From positions 186,001-250,000 of the forward strand of contig NZ_CP084469.1 in the NCBI RefSeq assembly GCF_020405205.1: a stretch of DNA of 64,000 bases, read 5' to 3'. Within the stretch, counting starts at the first letter, position 1. Every line of letters starts with the position of its first letter. The stretch comes from Natrinema salinisoli. GTDB lineage: Archaea > Halobacteriota > Halobacteria > Halobacteriales > Natrialbaceae. The notes under the pieces are model-generated. The model was not told the DNA's origin and searched no databases. It saw nothing but the letters and a program-made list of their open reading frames with translations. A program made the translations under genes and the position numbers. Below, piece after piece: positions 5,687-38,748 of the stretch.

Positions 5687-7033
5687 TCAGTCGGTCCCGA
5701 CCAGTTTGTAACCGCCCCCGTCGGTGTCGATCCCATCGTCAGATCGCTCCTCGTCTCCCTCCGGCGGATTCGGCGCGCGCTCGGCGTAGTAGATCGCCCC
5801 GTCGACCACGCGTGGCGTGCTCGAGACGTGCCCCTCGTTGTCGACCCGCCAGACTTCGTCGCCGGTTCGCTTCTCGAGCGCGTAGACGCCGCCGTCCCGG
5901 GAGCCGGCCACGACCCGCTCGTCGCAGACGATCGGACACCCGAAGAACCAGTCGTCCGCTTCGAACGACCAGTGTCGCTCGCCGGACTGGGCGTCGAGCG
6001 CGTACAGGTTGGTGTCGTGGCTGCCGATAAACACCGTGTCCAATTCGGGATCGAGCGCCGGACCCGACATCACCAGATCGCCCGTCTGGAACGACCAGTC
6101 TTCGGTGCCGTCCTCGAGGTCGACCCGGTAAACGTAGCCGTCCCACGACCCGAAGTAAGCGCCGCCGTCGTAGGTCGCGATCGGCCCCTTTATTTCGCCG
6201 TCGTTGGCGTCGCTGCCCCGGGTATCGAACGACCAGGCGAACTCCAGGTCCGGGTAGGACCACCCGTAGAGCTTTCCGTCGTTCGACCCGCAGACGAGCC
6301 GTCCGACCTCGAGATCGATCGCCGGCGTCGAGTGGGGGTGGTCGGTCGGCCGGTGCTCCGGGTCCTCCCAGACGACGGAGCCGTCGTTCGCGTCGATGAC
6401 GAACGTGCTCCCCTCGGGGTCGGGGTACTCGACTGCCATCACGAGCCGGCCGTCGTGGTAGAGCGGACTCGACCCGATGGCGCCGCCGAGTTTCGTCTGC
6501 CAATCGATATCGCCCGTCTCGGCGTCGACGGCGTAGAGTACCCCGTCGTACGCGCCGACGTACACCCGGCCGTCGGCGACGGCGGGCGTGCCGTGAATCC
6601 CGCGATCACCGGTATTCGTTCCGGTCCGCCAGCGCTCCTCGCCGTCCGGGTCGAGAGCGACCAGATAGCCGGTGTCGCCCGGGAAGACGACGCCGCCGTC
6701 CGGCAGGGGAACGGCGCTCGCCTTCGCGGCGGTGTGCGAGCCCGTATTGAGCCGGTCGAGGCGCCACTCCCGGGTCACGTCGTCCGGAACCGTGACGTCG
6801 GGGTAGTAGCCCCATCGCTCGAGCGACCGCCTGAACTGGGCGACGCCGTCCGGAACCGTTTGCTCGAGTCCGGTCTCGACCCGCGGAATCGGTTCGCGCT
6901 CGGCTCGCCCGAGACAGCCGGCCAGTCCGGCGGTCGCGGTGACCGCGCCGGCGGCCGCCGTGAGAACTCGGCGTCGACTGTGGGCGGTTTCGAGCGCCCC
7001 CGCAGTTGGATGTGAATCGTCTGCCATCGTCAC
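5687..7033 (-). CDS. PQQ-like beta-propeller lipoprotein, exported
   Basis: The 448-residue protein starts with a twin-arginine signal (SRRRVLTAAAG near residues 19-29) followed by a lipobox-like AGC, so it is probably a Tat-exported, lipid-anchored surface protein. The body is built of repeated PQQ/BamB-type blades: GVVFPGDTGYLVALDPDGEE, GRVYVGAYDGVLYAVDAETG, DTVFIGSHDTNLYALDAQSG and similar, each with an A/V-L-D/DAxxG turn. About seven blades can be counted. These propellers may scaffold proteins or bind a quinone cofactor; no active site is evident, so activity cannot be assigned. It is a single gene with no obvious operon partner, as the neighbouring MaoC gene lies 127 bases upstream. Confidence 0.85.
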   Translation of the reverse strand: MTMADDSHPTAGALETAHSRRRVLTAAAGAVTATAGLAGCLGRAEREPIPRVETGLEQTVPDGVAQFRRSLERWGYYPDVTVPDDVTREWRLDRLNTGSHTAAKASAVPLPDGGVVFPGDTGYLVALDPDGEERWRTGTNTGDRGIHGTPAVADGRVYVGAYDGVLYAVDAETGDIDWQTKLGGAIGSSPLYHDGRLVMAVEYPDPEGSTFVIDANDGSVVWEDPEHRPTDHPHSTPAIDLEVGRLVCGSNDGKLYGWSYPDLEFAWSFDTRGSDANDGEIKGPIATYDGGAYFGSWDGYVYRVDLEDGTEDWSFQTGDLVMSGPALDPELDTVFIGSHDTNLYALDAQSGERHWSFEADDWFFGCPIVCDERVVAGSRDGGVYALEKRTGDEVWRVDNEGHVSSTPRVVDGAIYYAERAPNPPEGDEERSDDGIDTDGGGYKLVGTD

Positions 7034-33170: not shown

Positions 33171-34466
33171 ATGGCCGACACTGCCGATACCGAACGCGAC
33201 CTGCCCCTCGAGTTCCGATCGGTCCCGCTCGGCGAGATCGAGACGGCCCGGAGTCGTCACATGTGGACCCGATCCGCGGTCAGCGTGGCCGACTCTGGCG
33301 ACCTCGTCGTGACCGGCCAGTGGGACGGGACGGTCACCGCCCGCGACGCCGACTCGCTCGAGACGCGGTGGACGGTCGATCACCCGGACCACGCGGTCGG
33401 AATCACGTCGCTCTCGAACGACGGTGAAGACGGCAGCGACGAGACGGTCGTCGTCGCCGGACGCGGCGAAACCGGAACGATCGCGGCCTACGACGCCGAG
33501 ACGGGCGACCGGCGCTGGCGGTACGACACCGTCGACGACGTGGGCGAGGCGGTCAAGGACACCGTCTTCTACCTGCCCTACGTGGTCGCGCTCGAGACGG
33601 GCACCGACGCGGACGGTACCGAACGACTCTACGCCGCCGCACGACGGTACGAACGCGACGGCGACCACCGCCAGTGGCACAGCACCGTCTACGCGTTCGA
33701 CCCCGACGGATCGGTCCGCTGGACCGACGAGACCGACGCCTCGCCGATCGCGATCGATCTCGACGCCGACGGCGAGCGCCTCGCGGTCGGCTACAACCGC
33801 TGTATGGGCGACCACGACACCGGCCTCGTGGTGCTCGAGGCCGAGTCGGGCGACCGACTGTGGAGCTGGGATCCCGGCACGGAGGGAGATCGCCGCGTCG
33901 GCGACGTCTCCTTCGACGGTGAGTCGATCGCCGTCTCGAGTCACGGGGACAAGCGCGGGTACCTGCTCGGCCCCGGTGGTGCCGAGCGCTGGCGCGTCGA
34001 CCTCGCAGTCGAGACCGAAATCGATGACGAGACCCTGTACGCCTATCCGAACCACGTCTACACGAACGACAGTCGCGTGGCGTTCGTGACCGGCAACACC
34101 TACGCGGTAGAGAGCCGCGAGACCGAGAGCCGACACCCGAACGAACACCGGGTCGCCGCGTTCGATGCGGACGGTGACCTCATCTGGGACGACGAGGTTC
34201 GGGGCTTCGTTCACGGCCTCGCCGCCGACGGCGGGCGACTCGTCGCGCCCTGCGCCCAGAACTTCCGGGTCCGTGATCCGGATACTCACGCCGTCCGCTG
34301 GTTCGACCTCGAGTCAGGCGCGAGCGGGTGCGAGCGCCTCGACGGGATCGCGACGGCGGCCGCCGTCGAAGAGGGAACGGTTGCTGCCATCGAGGAACCC
34401 GTCGAGTACCACGACGAGGGCCAGACGCGCGGCGAGTACGCGCTTCGCGTCGGCTCGCTCGAGTAG
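33171..34466 (+). CDS. Cytoplasmic PQQ/WD-like beta-propeller protein next to DUF3209
   Basis: 431 residues, no signal peptide. Propeller repeats are visible: VSVADSGDLVVTGQWDGTVT, VVVAGRGETGTIAAYDAETG, ...TVYAFDPDGSVRWTDETD, ...LVVLEAESGDRLWSWDPG. Blade-closing Trp and ADxxG turns recur. Start ATG at 33171 follows the DUF3209 stop by two bases. It differs from the exported paralogue at 5687-7033 in lacking a Tat signal. It may act as a scaffold in the B12 gene set; no catalytic residues were seen. A weak T-run (TTTTCTCT, 34483 on) after the stop may end transcription. Confidence 0.82.
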   Translation: MADTADTERDLPLEFRSVPLGEIETARSRHMWTRSAVSVADSGDLVVTGQWDGTVTARDADSLETRWTVDHPDHAVGITSLSNDGEDGSDETVVVAGRGETGTIAAYDAETGDRRWRYDTVDDVGEAVKDTVFYLPYVVALETGTDADGTERLYAAARRYERDGDHRQWHSTVYAFDPDGSVRWTDETDASPIAIDLDADGERLAVGYNRCMGDHDTGLVVLEAESGDRLWSWDPGTEGDRRVGDVSFDGESIAVSSHGDKRGYLLGPGGAERWRVDLAVETEIDDETLYAYPNHVYTNDSRVAFVTGNTYAVESRETESRHPNEHRVAAFDADGDLIWDDEVRGFVHGLAADGGRLVAPCAQNFRVRDPDTHAVRWFDLESGASGCERLDGIATAAAVEEGTVAAIEEPVEYHDEGQTRGEYALRVGSLE

Positions 34467-34573: not shown

Positions 34574-35749
34574 ATGAGCGAGAATTCTCCACGTGACGGC
34601 CGCGAGGGCCGTTCGGATCCCGAGCGGGTCGAACGCTCCTCGAGCCGTCCCGACGATGCCGAACGCACGATCGGCCCCTCGCGCCGGGTGATGACCGACG
34701 GCGGACAGGCGGAGATGGAAGAACCGGAAGAGGCCACTGAGGAGACGCCCGACGGTCAGGAAGCCGAGCAGGAAGAAGGCGAAGAGGAAGATTCGGAAGA
34801 AGAGGAAGCCGAGCAAGAAGAAGGGGAAGACGAAGAACCGGAAGAGGAGGAGGCTGAGGGAGAAGGCGAAGAAGAGCAATCGGAGACAGAAGAAGAGGAA
34901 GCTAAAGAGGGAGAATCCGAGGAAGAAGAGCGAGAAGGCACCGGGAACCTCGTTGAGGACGATCGCGAGGAAGGTCACGCCGAAGACGCCGAAGCGGTCT
35001 ACGAGGGCGACGACGCGTCCGGCGTGCTCCACCTCGATCTCGACGGTCTCTTCCTCGACGTCCTCGGCCTCGAGGTGAACCTGAACCCGGTTCAGCTCGA
35101 CGTTTCGGCGCGGCCGGGCGGAAACAATCTGCTCGGGAACTTGCTGTCTGCAGTGACGGGGTTACTGGACGGTCCCGGTGCCCTGCTCGACAAGGTGAAG
35201 TCGCTCCTGAGCAAACCGGTGGAGCTGCTGAAGAAGGTCCCGGGGAAGGCGAAGGAGTTCCTCAGTGGGCTCTTAGAGCGGCCGAAAGAGTTCCTCAGTG
35301 GACTTCTGGAACGGCCAAAGGAGTTCCTCAGCGGATTGGCGAGCAAGTCGAAGGAGTCACTCGGAAATCTATTCAGCAAGCTGAAAGGAATCCTCGGCAA
35401 ACCCGTGGAGTGGCTCCGCGGGCTGTTCGGCGGTGAGCCCGCGGAAGGCGACGAGGAGGCGTCCGAAGAAGCGACCGGCGAAGGGGACGAACCCGAACCG
35501 GCGGAAGCGGACGCAGAAGGGGCGGACGAAGAGGAAGAAGAAGCGGAATCGCCCGGCCGGATCTCCGCTGCCGGCAGCTGGCTGAAGGAGAAACTCGCCG
35601 GACTCGTTCCCAGTTTCCCCGTCGAGGAACTCGTGGCGATGGTCGTCAGTCAGGTGATCGAACAACTGATCGAGCAGCTGGAACCGGAAGCTGAGCAGGA
35701 GGACGAGGCGAGTGACCAGCCCGAAGCAGCGTCACAGGAGGCAGCCTAA
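34574..35749 (+). CDS. Acidic protein with LDLLGL-type domain and 11-residue amphipathic repeats
   Basis: 391 residues, no signal peptide. Residues about 45-130 are almost only Glu/Asp/Gly. Around 150-205 a domain reads LHLDLDGLFLDVLGLEVNLN, then LDVSARPGGNNLLGNLLSAV and LLDGPG, which resembles an uncharacterised motif common in exported bacterial proteins (usually with LLCAV). It is followed by four units of KEFLSGLLERP-type hendecads (about 227-270), a predicted amphipathic helix, then an acidic stretch and a C-terminal helix SQVIEQLIEQLEPEAEQ. Start at 34574 was chosen because upstream codons in the frame are shadow of the previous gene. It begins a four-gene series. Confidence 0.75.
   Translation: MSENSPRDGREGRSDPERVERSSSRPDDAERTIGPSRRVMTDGGQAEMEEPEEATEETPDGQEAEQEEGEEEDSEEEEAEQEEGEDEEPEEEEAEGEGEEEQSETEEEEAKEGESEEEEREGTGNLVEDDREEGHAEDAEAVYEGDDASGVLHLDLDGLFLDVLGLEVNLNPVQLDVSARPGGNNLLGNLLSAVTGLLDGPGALLDKVKSLLSKPVELLKKVPGKAKEFLSGLLERPKEFLSGLLERPKEFLSGLASKSKESLGNLFSKLKGILGKPVEWLRGLFGGEPAEGDEEASEEATGEGDEPEPAEADAEGADEEEEEAESPGRISAAGSWLKEKLAGLVPSFPVEELVAMVVSQVIEQLIEQLEPEAEQEDEASDQPEAASQEAA
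34740..34960 (+). repeat. Polypurine low-complexity tract in acidic gene
   Basis: Almost all bases on the plus strand are A or G, interrupted by single C or T, encoding Glu/Gly/Asp runs. Strand composition is extremely asymmetric compared with the surrounding genes, which could favour triplex formation or slippage. Confidence 0.7.
35252..35383 (+). repeat. Tandem 33-bp repeat encoding 11-residue helix units
   Basis: Four units of 33 bases at 35252, 35285, 35318 and 35351, each encoding K-E-F/S-L-S/G-G/N-L-L/F-x-x-x. The first three differ at few positions; the fourth is diverged. Confidence 0.8.
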
Positions 35750-35751
35750 TC

Positions 35752-36285
35752 ATGAGCGAAGAATCCGAAACCCAGTCACTGAGTCAGCGCATCGACTTCG
35801 AGAAAATCACAGAAAACATCGACGTGAACGATCTAATCGAGGGCACCCAGTGGGAAGACGAGATCGACGAGGACCAGCCCCTCGGAGAGGCCCTCGGCGC
35901 CCAGGTCGGTGCGCTAATCGGTCGAAAGATCGGCGAATCCATCGGCCGGACGATCGGTGATATGGTCATCGACGAACTGTTCGGGTCCGACGAGGAGGAA
36001 GCCGAGGAAGGGGCGGAAGACGAGGAAGAAGAGGGTGAGGACGGGGAAGAAGAAGCCGAGGAAGGGGCGGAAGACGAGGAAGAAGAGGGTGAGGACGAGG
36101 AAGAAGAAGCCGAGGAAGGGGCGGAAGACGAGGAAGACGAAGCTGAGGAAGAATCCGAGGCAGCGGACGAGGAGAGTGGGGAACAGGCGGACGACGAAGC
36201 GGCGTCCAGTGATGAAGACGCCGACGAGGGGACGGACGAAGCGGAGGACGAGGACCCGGCCGAAGTCGAAGCCGAGGAGGACTAA
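35752..36285 (+). CDS. Acidic glycine-zipper protein
   Basis: 177 residues. The first 75 residues form a structured part ending in a glycine zipper, LGEALGAQVGALIGRKIGES followed by IGRTIGDMV, with Gly every fourth position on a helix that is hydrophobic on one face. The rest is an extremely acidic tail including a tandem 18-residue repeat AEEGAEDEEEEGEDGEEE. The zipper could pack in membranes or assemble oligomers. It follows the previous stop by two bases, so it is co-translated. The zipper is related in pattern to that of the next gene. Confidence 0.75.
   Translation: MSEESETQSLSQRIDFEKITENIDVNDLIEGTQWEDEIDEDQPLGEALGAQVGALIGRKIGESIGRTIGDMVIDELFGSDEEEAEEGAEDEEEEGEDGEEEAEEGAEDEEEEGEDEEEEAEEGAEDEEDEAEEESEAADEESGEQADDEAASSDEDADEGTDEAEDEDPAEVEAEED
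36001..36147 (+). repeat. Tandem 54-bp repeat in acidic tail
   Basis: Two near-identical 54-base units start at 36001 and 36055 and a partial third at 36109. They differ by very few bases, which implies recent duplication or ongoing slippage. Confidence 0.8.
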
Positions 36286-36336
36286 CCATGGAACGGAATC
36301 AGGGGCTCGACACCGGACCGCCGATCCCCGCTCGAG

Positions 36337-37239
36337 GTGAGCGCCGTGAGTGAGAGCGGGCTGAAGGAACTCGTGACGCAGGAAGTGAGCAACCAGCTCG
36401 ACGTCGCCGACATGCTCGGCGACGGAGACATCGAGGACAGCATCGACGGCGGCGAGGTCGGCGCAGCGGTCGGTCGCGAGTTCGGTGAACGCTTCGGTCG
36501 CGAACTGGGCGCGGCCATCGGCCGCGGAATCCACGAATCGATCGCGAAAGGAATCGAAGAGGGGAAAGACCGCAAGGAGATACAGTCGGACCTCGTGACC
36601 GCGATCCGGAACGGCTTCCGAGAGTCAATCGATGAAAACGAGGCAACGGAATCGGTCCAGTCGCTGGCCCAGGACGTCACCGAGGGGAGCGGCGTCGAGG
36701 GGCTTGTGGACGGTCTCGGCGGCGACGAGAGCGAGGAACCCACCGAAGACGAGTCGGAGAGCGAGGAGCAGACGGAATCCAAAGACGAGGAACGGGCGGA
36801 CGAAGCGGGAGAGGGGGACGACGAGAGCGCCGAAAACGGCGAAACGGGAGCCAAAGAGTCGGTCACGGAAGCCGCGGGCAGCGCCAAAGAATCGGTCGAA
36901 GGAGCTGCCGGGAAGGCCAAAGAAACGATCGCAGGAAGTGACGAGGAGTCGGAAGCCGGCGAGGAGACGGACGCCGAAGCCGACTACGAAGCCGAAGCGT
37001 CCGACGAAGACGAGTCGGAACCGTCCATGGAGGACCTCGAGGATCTCAGGAAGGACACGCTCGAGGACTTCCTGGGGGTGATGTCCTACAGCGACCTCCA
37101 GTCGGTCGCCAAGGACGTCGGCGTGAAAGCGAACCTCAGCCGTGAGAAGATGACCAACGAAATCATCGCAACCGTGACGGAGGAAGGGTCGGACGACGAC
37201 TCGGACTCCGAGTCCGAGCAGGAGGCGGAAGCCGAGTGA
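36337..37239 (+). CDS. Acidic glycine-zipper protein with C-terminal SAP-like domain
   Basis: 300 residues from GTG at 36337; GTG at 36346 (MSESGLKELVTQEVSNQLDV) is an alternative. A glycine-zipper helix (VGAAVGREFGERFGRELGAA, about residues 45-65) is followed by a helical part, a long acidic linker with AKESV repeats, and a C-terminal segment from about 235: DLRKDTLEDFLGVMSYSDLQ, then SVAKDVGVKANLSREKMTNE. The latter has the helix-turn-helix look of SAP/Rho-N or LEM-like domains, which bind nucleic acid or protein. A 22-residue frame from ATG at 36288 ends at the start and may be a leader. Function is unknown. Confidence 0.7.
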   Translation: MSAVSESGLKELVTQEVSNQLDVADMLGDGDIEDSIDGGEVGAAVGREFGERFGRELGAAIGRGIHESIAKGIEEGKDRKEIQSDLVTAIRNGFRESIDENEATESVQSLAQDVTEGSGVEGLVDGLGGDESEEPTEDESESEEQTESKDEERADEAGEGDDESAENGETGAKESVTEAAGSAKESVEGAAGKAKETIAGSDEESEAGEETDAEADYEAEASDEDESEPSMEDLEDLRKDTLEDFLGVMSYSDLQSVAKDVGVKANLSREKMTNEIIATVTEEGSDDDSDSESEQEAEAE

Positions 37240-37317
37240 GAGATCGAACGCATCACCCCTGCTTCGGCCGGGGGCGAACGACGCAACCAGCGCCGCGGTG
37301 ATATCGGGGACCCACCT

Positions 37318-38184
37318 ATGAGCGAATCGCAACTACGCGACCGAGTGGACGACGTACTGAACGACGCCGACGCCTCGAGCGGATCCATGATCGGCGGGTC
37401 CGACTCCGAGCATGCGAACGAGTCGGCCGAGACGGATCTTCTCGAGACGGCAACGGAGGCGAGCGACATCCTCGAGTCGACCGAGCCCGACGAGTTGCTC
37501 GCAGCGGTCGGCCTGGACACCCTCGAGGACGGAACGGAACCGGACTCGATTCCGGCGGCCATCGCTCGTGGTGACCAGGAGAACCTCGAGGACCTCCAGC
37601 GATTGCTCCACCTCGCGAAACTCGCCCACCGCGCGGACGAGGACGGTCTCGACGGAGCCGTTGGTGACCTCCGAGAAGCCATCGACGAACGGGCAGCCGC
37701 AACTGCCGACGAGGCGGAGACCGACCGGGAGGAAGGGGCCGCTACGTCGACGGAGGACGCGGACGAGGGGACCGAATCAGTGAGTGCAGACGAAGACGCA
37801 ACCGCCAGTGACGAGACGAGCGACGACCTCGGAGACCGTCTCCGGTCCTCCTTCGAGCAGTTCGGCGACGAGATCCAGCAGCTCAAGGACCGGCTCGAGT
37901 CGGCGAATGCCGGTTCCGCCAGCAGCGAGACGGCGGACGATGCGGACGGAGCGACCGCCGACGCCGAGGGAGCGGACGAAGTCACAGGCGAGGAAGCGGA
38001 AACCGACGACGAGCCGGAGGAGGTCGACGAAGGGCCACTCGGCTCGGGGCTCGGCGGCGGTGGGGATCGCGGGACGGTATCCGGCGGTCCCAGCCGCCAC
38101 TCCACGATGGCACCGCCGCCGTCCCAACGAGCGGACATGCGCGGCCCTGTTCGGCACTCGACGATGCCGGCCAAGCACCGATAG
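37318..38184 (+). CDS. Acidic hypothetical protein with duplicated RHSTM motif
   Basis: 288 residues. It opens with a helical region of about 125 residues (SQLRDRVDDVLNDAD...LEDLQRLLHLAKLAHRA...LREAIDERAA), then a long acidic linker with a coiled segment (LGDRLRSSFEQFGDEIQQLK). The last 35 residues change abruptly to Gly then basic, with two copies of a short motif: PSRHSTMAPPP and PVRHSTMPAKHR. I vaguely recall similar Arg-x-STM endings in other haloarchaeal acidic proteins. It is the fourth gene of the series, 78 bases after the third. No fold or function is assigned. Confidence 0.7.
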   Translation: MSESQLRDRVDDVLNDADASSGSMIGGSDSEHANESAETDLLETATEASDILESTEPDELLAAVGLDTLEDGTEPDSIPAAIARGDQENLEDLQRLLHLAKLAHRADEDGLDGAVGDLREAIDERAAATADEAETDREEGAATSTEDADEGTESVSADEDATASDETSDDLGDRLRSSFEQFGDEIQQLKDRLESANAGSASSETADDADGATADAEGADEVTGEEAETDDEPEEVDEGPLGSGLGGGGDRGTVSGGPSRHSTMAPPPSQRADMRGPVRHSTMPAKHR

Positions 38185-38283: not shown

Positions 38284-38748
38284 ATGACGAGACACATCAG
38301 CGAGACACAGGTCCACCACTGGTTGGACGACACGGCCATTCGGAACGTGACGTCCCACACGGACGAAGACACCGAATTCAACTTTCAGGTCGAACTCTCG
38401 CAATTGCCGGTTCACGTCATCAAGGAAGACGAGTTCGGCTCGGTTCGGATCGTCGGCCGCAGCGGATTCGACACCGAACGGGCCAGAAATCTGCTCCGAG
38501 ACGATCAGCGGCGCGGCGAGTTACTCGAGTACGTCGGGCCGATGCTGGCGGCGACGCCGGGCTTTTACACGTTTCTCGACGAGGACGGCGTCTCCTGTCA
38601 GTTGCGGGAGGCGGAGACGGTGCAGGTCGAGTATCGAGTCTATCCCGACGGTGCTTCCCAGCAGGCGCTGATGGACGGGATCATGGCTATTGCGACGAGT
38701 ATGCGGTACGTCCAGAACGTCGTGGTAGCGGTGGCGGCCGCCGAGTGA
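38284..38748 (+). CDS. DUF2299-like / YbjN-fold protein
   Basis: 154 residues, cytoplasmic. ISETQVHHWLDDTAIRNVTS, then FNFQVELSQLPVHVIKEDEF, suits the chaperone-like alpha/beta fold of DUF2299 and YbjN proteins, which are small dimers with unknown roles. ATG at 38284 is chosen because the upstream in-frame part reads through the preceding intergenic DNA. It lies about 100 bases after the acidic operon and may be a separate transcript. Confidence 0.65.
   Translation: MTRHISETQVHHWLDDTAIRNVTSHTDEDTEFNFQVELSQLPVHVIKEDEFGSVRIVGRSGFDTERARNLLRDDQRRGELLEYVGPMLAATPGFYTFLDEDGVSCQLREAETVQVEYRVYPDGASQQALMDGIMAIATSMRYVQNVVVAVAAAE

Follow-up and report, generated by a model that had tools for sequence, protein, structure and literature searches.

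The window analysed here, a stretch of 64,000 nucleotides from the 4.7 Mb genome of the haloarchaeon Natrinema salinisoli (G000:C1:186001-250000), contains four consecutive forward-strand genes, designated A to D, which are separated by 2, 51 and 78 bases (Table 1). They are flanked by a PQQ-propeller gene (33171-34466) on one side and by a DUF2299-like gene (38284-38748) on the other. An earlier note, written from the DNA letters alone, had described them as an operon of very acidic, glycine-zipper containing proteins. The lengths it gave for B, C and D were recovered, and A ends at 35749. However, its start of A at 34574, yielding 391 residues, was replaced by the downstream ATG because the homologues in the loci L116 and L145 open with MTDGGQAEM, matching this ATG. 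The acidity was as described, since aspartate and glutamate account for 31% of A, 49% of B, 31% of C and 27% of D, compared to a median of 20% in the 53 window genes of more than 100 amino acids. Pfam, NCBIfam and Protein Data Bank (PDB) sequence searches with A-D returned no relative above the cut-off, and the top PDB rows resemble matches of acidic or helical stretches.

Table 1. Genes and features of the A-D cassette (window positions; pLDDT, predicted local distance difference test; AF2, AlphaFold2; E, expectation value)
Feature	Positions	Strand	Description or basis
Gene A	34691-35749	+	352 residues, ATG at 34691; acidic N-terminus, LDVLGL core, amphipathic helical repeats, acidic linker, C-terminal helix
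Conserved core of A (SGVLHLDLDGLFLDVLGLEV...NLLGNLL)	35018-35176	+	13 invariant columns, 43 homologues
Amphipathic helix region of A	35126-35449	+	11-residue repeats around KEFLSGLLERP
C-terminal helix of A	35621-35680	+	AF2 block-mean pLDDT 78 and 84; homologue ends similar
Gene B	35752-36285	+	177 residues; conserved N-terminus, glycine zipper, acidic tail
Glycine zipper of B	35881-35985	+	7 consecutive [LIVFMA]Gxx tetrads
Gene C	36337-37239	+	300 residues, GTG start; zipper, acidic linker, SAP/Rho-N-like end
Zipper helix of C, residues 38-74	36448-36558	+	AF2 helix, block-mean pLDDT 80-95 over most; zipper alignment
SAP/Rho-N-like three-helix end of C, residues 231-286	37027-37194	+	block-mean pLDDT 85-94 over most
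Gene D	37318-38184	+	288 residues; GvpI-related by profile search
STMP-repeat tail of D (SRHSTMAPPPSQRADMRGPVRHSTMPAKHR)	38092-38181	+	match of GvpI-position tail profile, E 3.2e-4

The distribution of the four genes was followed by a scan of named genomes with an alignment of A, in which 80 of 84 loci were kept, some of them truncated at contig ends. They belong chiefly to the Natrialbaceae (Natrinema, Natronorubrum, Natrialba, Natronococcus, Halopiger and others), the remainder to Haladaptatus, Halogranum, Haloprofundus, Halococcus and others. The gene order proved to be conserved in this synteny survey, which the earlier note had proposed. The set A-B-C-D was found without gas-vesicle (gvp) genes in the flanks at 50 of the 80 loci and together with at least one gvp-type call at five more. 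The other 25 loci comprise seven with ABC, two with ABC and gvp, three with AB, three with AD and gvp, two with D and gvp, one each with A, AC, BCD, BCD and gvp, and gvp alone, as well as three with nothing. For L197, one of the five loci with A-B-C-D and gvp, the gvp label is a single GvpH/Hsp20-type match that may be an ordinary Hsp20. As the flanks differ between loci (e.g. L196 and L225), the cassette is a unit. A plasmid search found nothing.

In a survey of 40 chosen stretches from other genomes, cassette genes adjoin a gvp cluster in 16 (L080-L087, L091, L095, L096, L106, L107, L109, L113 and L114), while in four (L110, L111, L112 and L115) the clustering applied revealed neither cassette nor gvp genes. 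In the linked loci, which are of other haloarchaeal families, the usual order is gvpF-G-H, a D-like or GvpI-type gene and gvpJ-K-L-M, with gvpA and gvpO divergent and with A, B and C past gvpO or inside the cluster. Within the family of N. salinisoli, homologues of B and C still adjoin gvp genes in two relatives (L140 and L141). The gvp cluster of N. salinisoli itself lies 1.1 Mb away from A-D (G000:C1, about 1,325-1,332 kb; L117). It contains gvpM, L, K, J, a gene for a GvpI-type protein, gvpH, G, F, A, N and O, and no gene was found in the gvpA-gvpN interval of L117.

The occurrence of the cassette was then compared to that of gvpA. Among 243 genomes of the order, A is present in 83 and gvpA in 103. 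gvpA is found in 82 of the 83 A-positive genomes, as compared to 21 of the 160 A-negative ones (Fisher p 2e-43, uncorrected for relatedness), and the sole A-positive genome without gvpA is 70% complete and has a weak A match. B behaves in the same way, with gvpA in 82 of 84 B-positive genomes, a count that includes two weak matches in gvp-negative genomes (G104 and G215). Of the 125 genomes of the family, 112 carry gvpA and 108 carry A; every A-positive genome has gvpA as well, and A is missing from all 13 gvpA-negative ones. The four gvpA-positive genomes without A are G005, which has kept B, C and D, G281, which also has B, C and D and is 83% complete, G034 and G271.

The adjacent propeller gene, present in 102 of the 125 family genomes, served as a control. 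It persists in the gvp-negative genomes G006, G013, G027, G036, G274, G278 and G321, with a protein identity of 84-93% in the first three. In G027 the site of the cassette is empty, with the propeller protein (92% identity) and a PstS-like protein (93% identity) encoded 337 bases apart. The gvpA-less G013 retains a decayed remnant of C at the cassette site (E 4.8e-9; L232 = G013:C87:68000-79000, about 6664-6892), and in G006 the site is rearranged. Thus, the loss of the cassette together with gvp is specific, the neighbouring gene surviving.

A further link to the gas-vesicle system is provided by D, which carries two copies of the RHSTM motif. A profile of 42 D proteins chosen by position was compared to the other predicted proteins and gave 113 rows at E<=10, including duplicates from overlapping loci. 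On inspection, each of the 43 rows that do not adjoin C proved to be either a homologue of D or a protein at the GvpI position of a gvp cluster, and the mid region of D matches longer GvpI-position proteins as well. Conversely, a profile built solely from 37 GvpI-position tails matched 68 of 2766 proteins at E<=1e-3, among them the D of the window; apart from the canonical GvpI of L131 (E 6e-13), the matches listed are all homologues of D. BLAST of D against the GvpI of its own genome aligned the tail only, with 14 of 35 residues identical (40%, E 0.001). From these comparisons, D is related to GvpI, with which it shares the STMP-repeat tail. It differs from GvpI in lacking the terminal RIYGxRF motif found in most of the GvpI-position tails shown, and in being acidic, whereas the GvpI studied experimentally is reported to be positively charged (PMC7688916). 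D is also located downstream of C and not between gvpH and gvpJ, a place that in its own genome is filled by a separate GvpI-type gene (L117:6654-7712). For Natrialba magadii, the genome paper had already described a GvpI homologue bearing a long extension at its N-terminus, and the absence of GvpC, GvpD and GvpE (PMC3403918).

GvpC is the outer shell protein of haloarchaeal gas vesicles, to which it gives shape and strength. In Halobacterium salinarum its loss is reported to result in weak, misshapen vesicles, and that of GvpI in very long ones; GvpC binds GvpI and is described as a helical rod terminating in a globular part, with GvpN, GvpO, F, H, I and L as binding partners (PMC9372576, PMC7688916). 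The haloarchaeal GvpC repeat (PF05465) was found in 11 of the 243 order genomes. Eight of the 11 have multi-repeat genes in gvpA-positive genomes, adjoining gvpA where both coordinates are listed. Three weak single matches were dropped before counting, namely those in G103, which has no gvpA, and in G109 and G123, which are lone repeats off the gvpA coordinates. Of the 103 gvpA-positive genomes, 82 have A, eight have GvpC, 13 have neither and none has both (p 9e-7, uncorrected). In the family, PF05465 matched in none of the 125 genomes, a search in which the built-in controls gave no match either; the absence of GvpC from the family therefore rests on the 243-genome search and on the gvpA-gvpN junctions in L117 and L118.

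The gvp loci of six of the 13 genomes with neither A nor GvpC were read (L128, L129, L133, L134, L143 and L144). In L134, L143 and L144 the gene of a short zipper protein lies inside the gvp cluster or closes it. Such short, acidic-tailed zipper proteins were seen in gvp clusters at L143:4877-5287, L144:6632-7042, L134:7756-8436 and L124:8671-9255; the genome of L124 has A elsewhere, and those of the other three are without A. As a separate observation, the A-negative G034 carries a gene for a 416-residue protein (L137:10684-11934) between gvpA and gvpN, the place of gvpC, without a match to Pfam Halo_GVPC. A faint resemblance of its C-terminus to the end of C was too weak to count as a link (domain E 0.57).

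On account of the synteny, the phyletic co-occurrence, the co-loss and the GvpI tail in D, A-D are very probably associated with the haloarchaeal gas-vesicle system. The statement of the earlier note that no gas-vesicle match was seen holds for the Pfam and NCBIfam searches of A-D but not for synteny, co-occurrence and the tail of D, which lead to a known structural system. The conditions that the note had set for its own refutation thus point in opposite directions, the synteny being conserved and a known system being hit. Its suggestion of a self-assembling structure gains from the same evidence and from the co-loss. The membrane surface that it offered as an alternative was dropped, as nothing examined supports it and the zipper helices are heavily charged. 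It is very improbable that A-D accompany gvp merely through a common habitat or gene-transfer islands and that the job of the cassette is unrelated. The many loci with A-B-C-D unlinked to gvp would fit such an origin, and Fisher tests are blind to phylogeny. It would leave unexplained, however, the gvp-linked copies in several families, the specific co-loss with intact flanks, the mutual exclusion with GvpC and the GvpI tail in D.

We regard A-D as an accessory gas-vesicle cassette of those lineages whose gvp cluster lacks gvpC, probably acting as a shell-coat and shape module in GvpC's stead (with a probability of roughly 0.6). Since no genome has both A and GvpC, a function in coating or shaping the vesicle is suggested, and whether A-D in fact take over this role from GvpC is an even bet judged from the sequence comparisons. 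Like the proposed module, GvpC is a partner of the GvpA shell, built from alpha-helical repeats plus a globular end (PMC9372576), and among gvpA-positive genomes the two are distributed in a complementary manner. The cassette differs from GvpC in lacking its repeat, in the proposed spread of the role over several acidic proteins and in being often unlinked to gvp.

Several observations weigh against this assignment. No PF05465 repeat was found in A, nor in B-D, and the single-phase helical periodicity of A described below is not seen in GvpC itself. Of the 103 gvpA-positive order genomes, 21 have no A, and 13 of these have no counted GvpC either; G271 carries gvp genes, yet neither A nor B gave a match. 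The p-values given above take no account of relatedness, D is weakly similar to the GvpI of its own genome beyond the tail, and the AF2 model of A is poor, consisting of helices only (pLDDT 62, predicted template modelling score 0.27). Furthermore, a 2015 review scores the GvpC-less Natrialba magadii and Natrinema pellirubrum as gas-vesicle negative (PMC4390858).

Within the proposed module, the ribs would be coated by A. In line with the LDLLGL-type domain plus amphipathic repeats of the earlier note, its LDVLGL core is succeeded by amphipathic repeats of 11 residues. For the core, no relative was found in Pfam, NCBIfam or PDB. In the repeat region the identity at lag 11 is 0.37, and the helical hydrophobic power of 17.8 was equalled in none of 5000 shuffles; AF2 places helices here with low confidence. 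In some gvp-linked lineages A reaches 840 residues (L084:7517-10039), with three carboxypeptidase-regulatory/Ig-like matches N-terminal to the core. The core is shared by short proteins with a signal-like start at two Chloroflexota and two Salipaludibacillus loci, and gvp genes are absent from the fetched stretches around them; therefore, the core by itself is no gas-vesicle marker. Proteins of this kind distant from gvp were noted at L103:8784-9464 in a haloarchaeon and at L200:5692-6210 and L214:5662-6207, both in Chloroflexota. In the proposed mechanism, the amphipathic 11-residue helices would place A on the outer face of the GvpA ribs, and the acidic segments of A would keep the bubble soluble in saturated salt.

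An early role in assembly is a less likely alternative. A-D would then be nucleation chaperones that keep the hydrophobic GvpA, GvpJ and GvpM soluble in gvpC-less lineages and are absent from the finished vesicle. Their very high acidity (27-49% aspartate and glutamate) and the amphipathic helices of A would suit such a task, as would the kinship of D to GvpI, which in Hbt. salinarum is reported as a member of the early GvpF-M complex affecting the oligomerisation of GvpM, GvpK and GvpJ (PMC7688916). However, the gvpF-M accessory set of the N. salinisoli genome is already complete, with a GvpI-type protein at its usual place (L117). As part of a coat or shape module, D would instead plug the coat into the GvpF/L/H/I assembly complex via the STMP repeats of GvpI and limit vesicle length.

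B and C contribute the zipper helices, which the earlier note had correctly recognized as being of one design. Seven consecutive [LIVFMA]Gxx tetrads in B and six in C were reached in none of 100,000 shuffles each. Profiles of the two N-termini converged on nearly the same proteins (205 in common, of 213 and 209), although acidic stretches pulled into the profiles may have contributed; in view of this convergence, paralogy within one zipper family is the most likely relationship of B and C. Regular GxxxG tetrads are shared with the glycine-zipper families PF13488 and PF13441, for which the scores of 13.8 and 12.9 fall below the cut-offs of 25 and 28.9, and its many charges set the zipper helix of the cassette apart from a membrane segment. 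Through these tetrad helices, B and C may be locked into an oligomeric scaffold.

In the AF2 model of C, the zipper helix is followed by another one at residues 79-100; a disordered acidic linker then leads to a confidently predicted three-helix end, in keeping with the SAP-like end claimed before. The structure matches of these 56 residues by Foldseek and VIA-align are DEK, the Rho N-terminus, Tho1 and PIAS, all small folds and consistent with each other, with Z up to 6.9 and weak Foldseek scores (E >2). The predicted fold may thus be akin to the helix-extension-helix domains of SAP and Rho N-terminal proteins, and in a Pfam search of C neither SAP nor Rho_N families came up at E<=0.1. The end of C might dock other partners, either Gvp proteins or nucleic acid, as the globular C-terminus of GvpC does with GvpN, GvpO, F, H, I and L. 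It is rather doubtful that the cassette as a whole is a positioning or tether device in which this domain links the vesicles to nucleoid DNA or RNA in order to space or partition them. Such a fold is common to DNA- and RNA-binding SAP and Rho N-terminal domains, and the long disordered acidic linker would suit a tether. A common small three-helix fold with Foldseek E values above 2 is no proof of nucleic-acid binding, however, and the exclusion of GvpC points to a coat or shape role.

A coat or shape module formed by A-D would bear on the many haloarchaea that carry gvp clusters without GvpC and are recorded as vesicle-less, for which the cassette is a candidate for the missing component. Whether gvpC-less gvp clusters are expressed is not known according to the 2015 review (PMC4390858), and globules resembling gas vacuoles are described for one Haloterrigena isolate (PMC7066086). 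More speculatively, and with a low probability, the GvpC-less haloarchaea build a distinct organelle derived from gas vesicles, with a standard GvpA shell, an acidic coat of zipper and amphipathic A proteins, shaping by a second GvpI and perhaps a nucleic-acid tie via C. It could form only under particular conditions or serve a purpose other than buoyancy, which would account for the gas-vesicle-negative scoring of these species. The Haloterrigena globules could also be storage granules. Gas vesicles have been engineered via GvpC as acoustic sensors and display particles (PMC9501494), so that a second, unrelated coat, if true, would be a new engineering handle on them. The open-access literature searched, to which subscription papers and preprints did not belong, does not mention the cassette in the parts covered, and no priority is claimed.

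Two further observations concern the cassette and its linked forms. Haladaptatus halobius has three copies of the ABC cassette (L205, L207 and L211), two of them plasmid-borne. At L084:7111-7446 and in relatives, a conserved 112-residue protein with weak zinc-ribbon-like matches is encoded between gvpO and A and is a candidate gas-vesicle gene.

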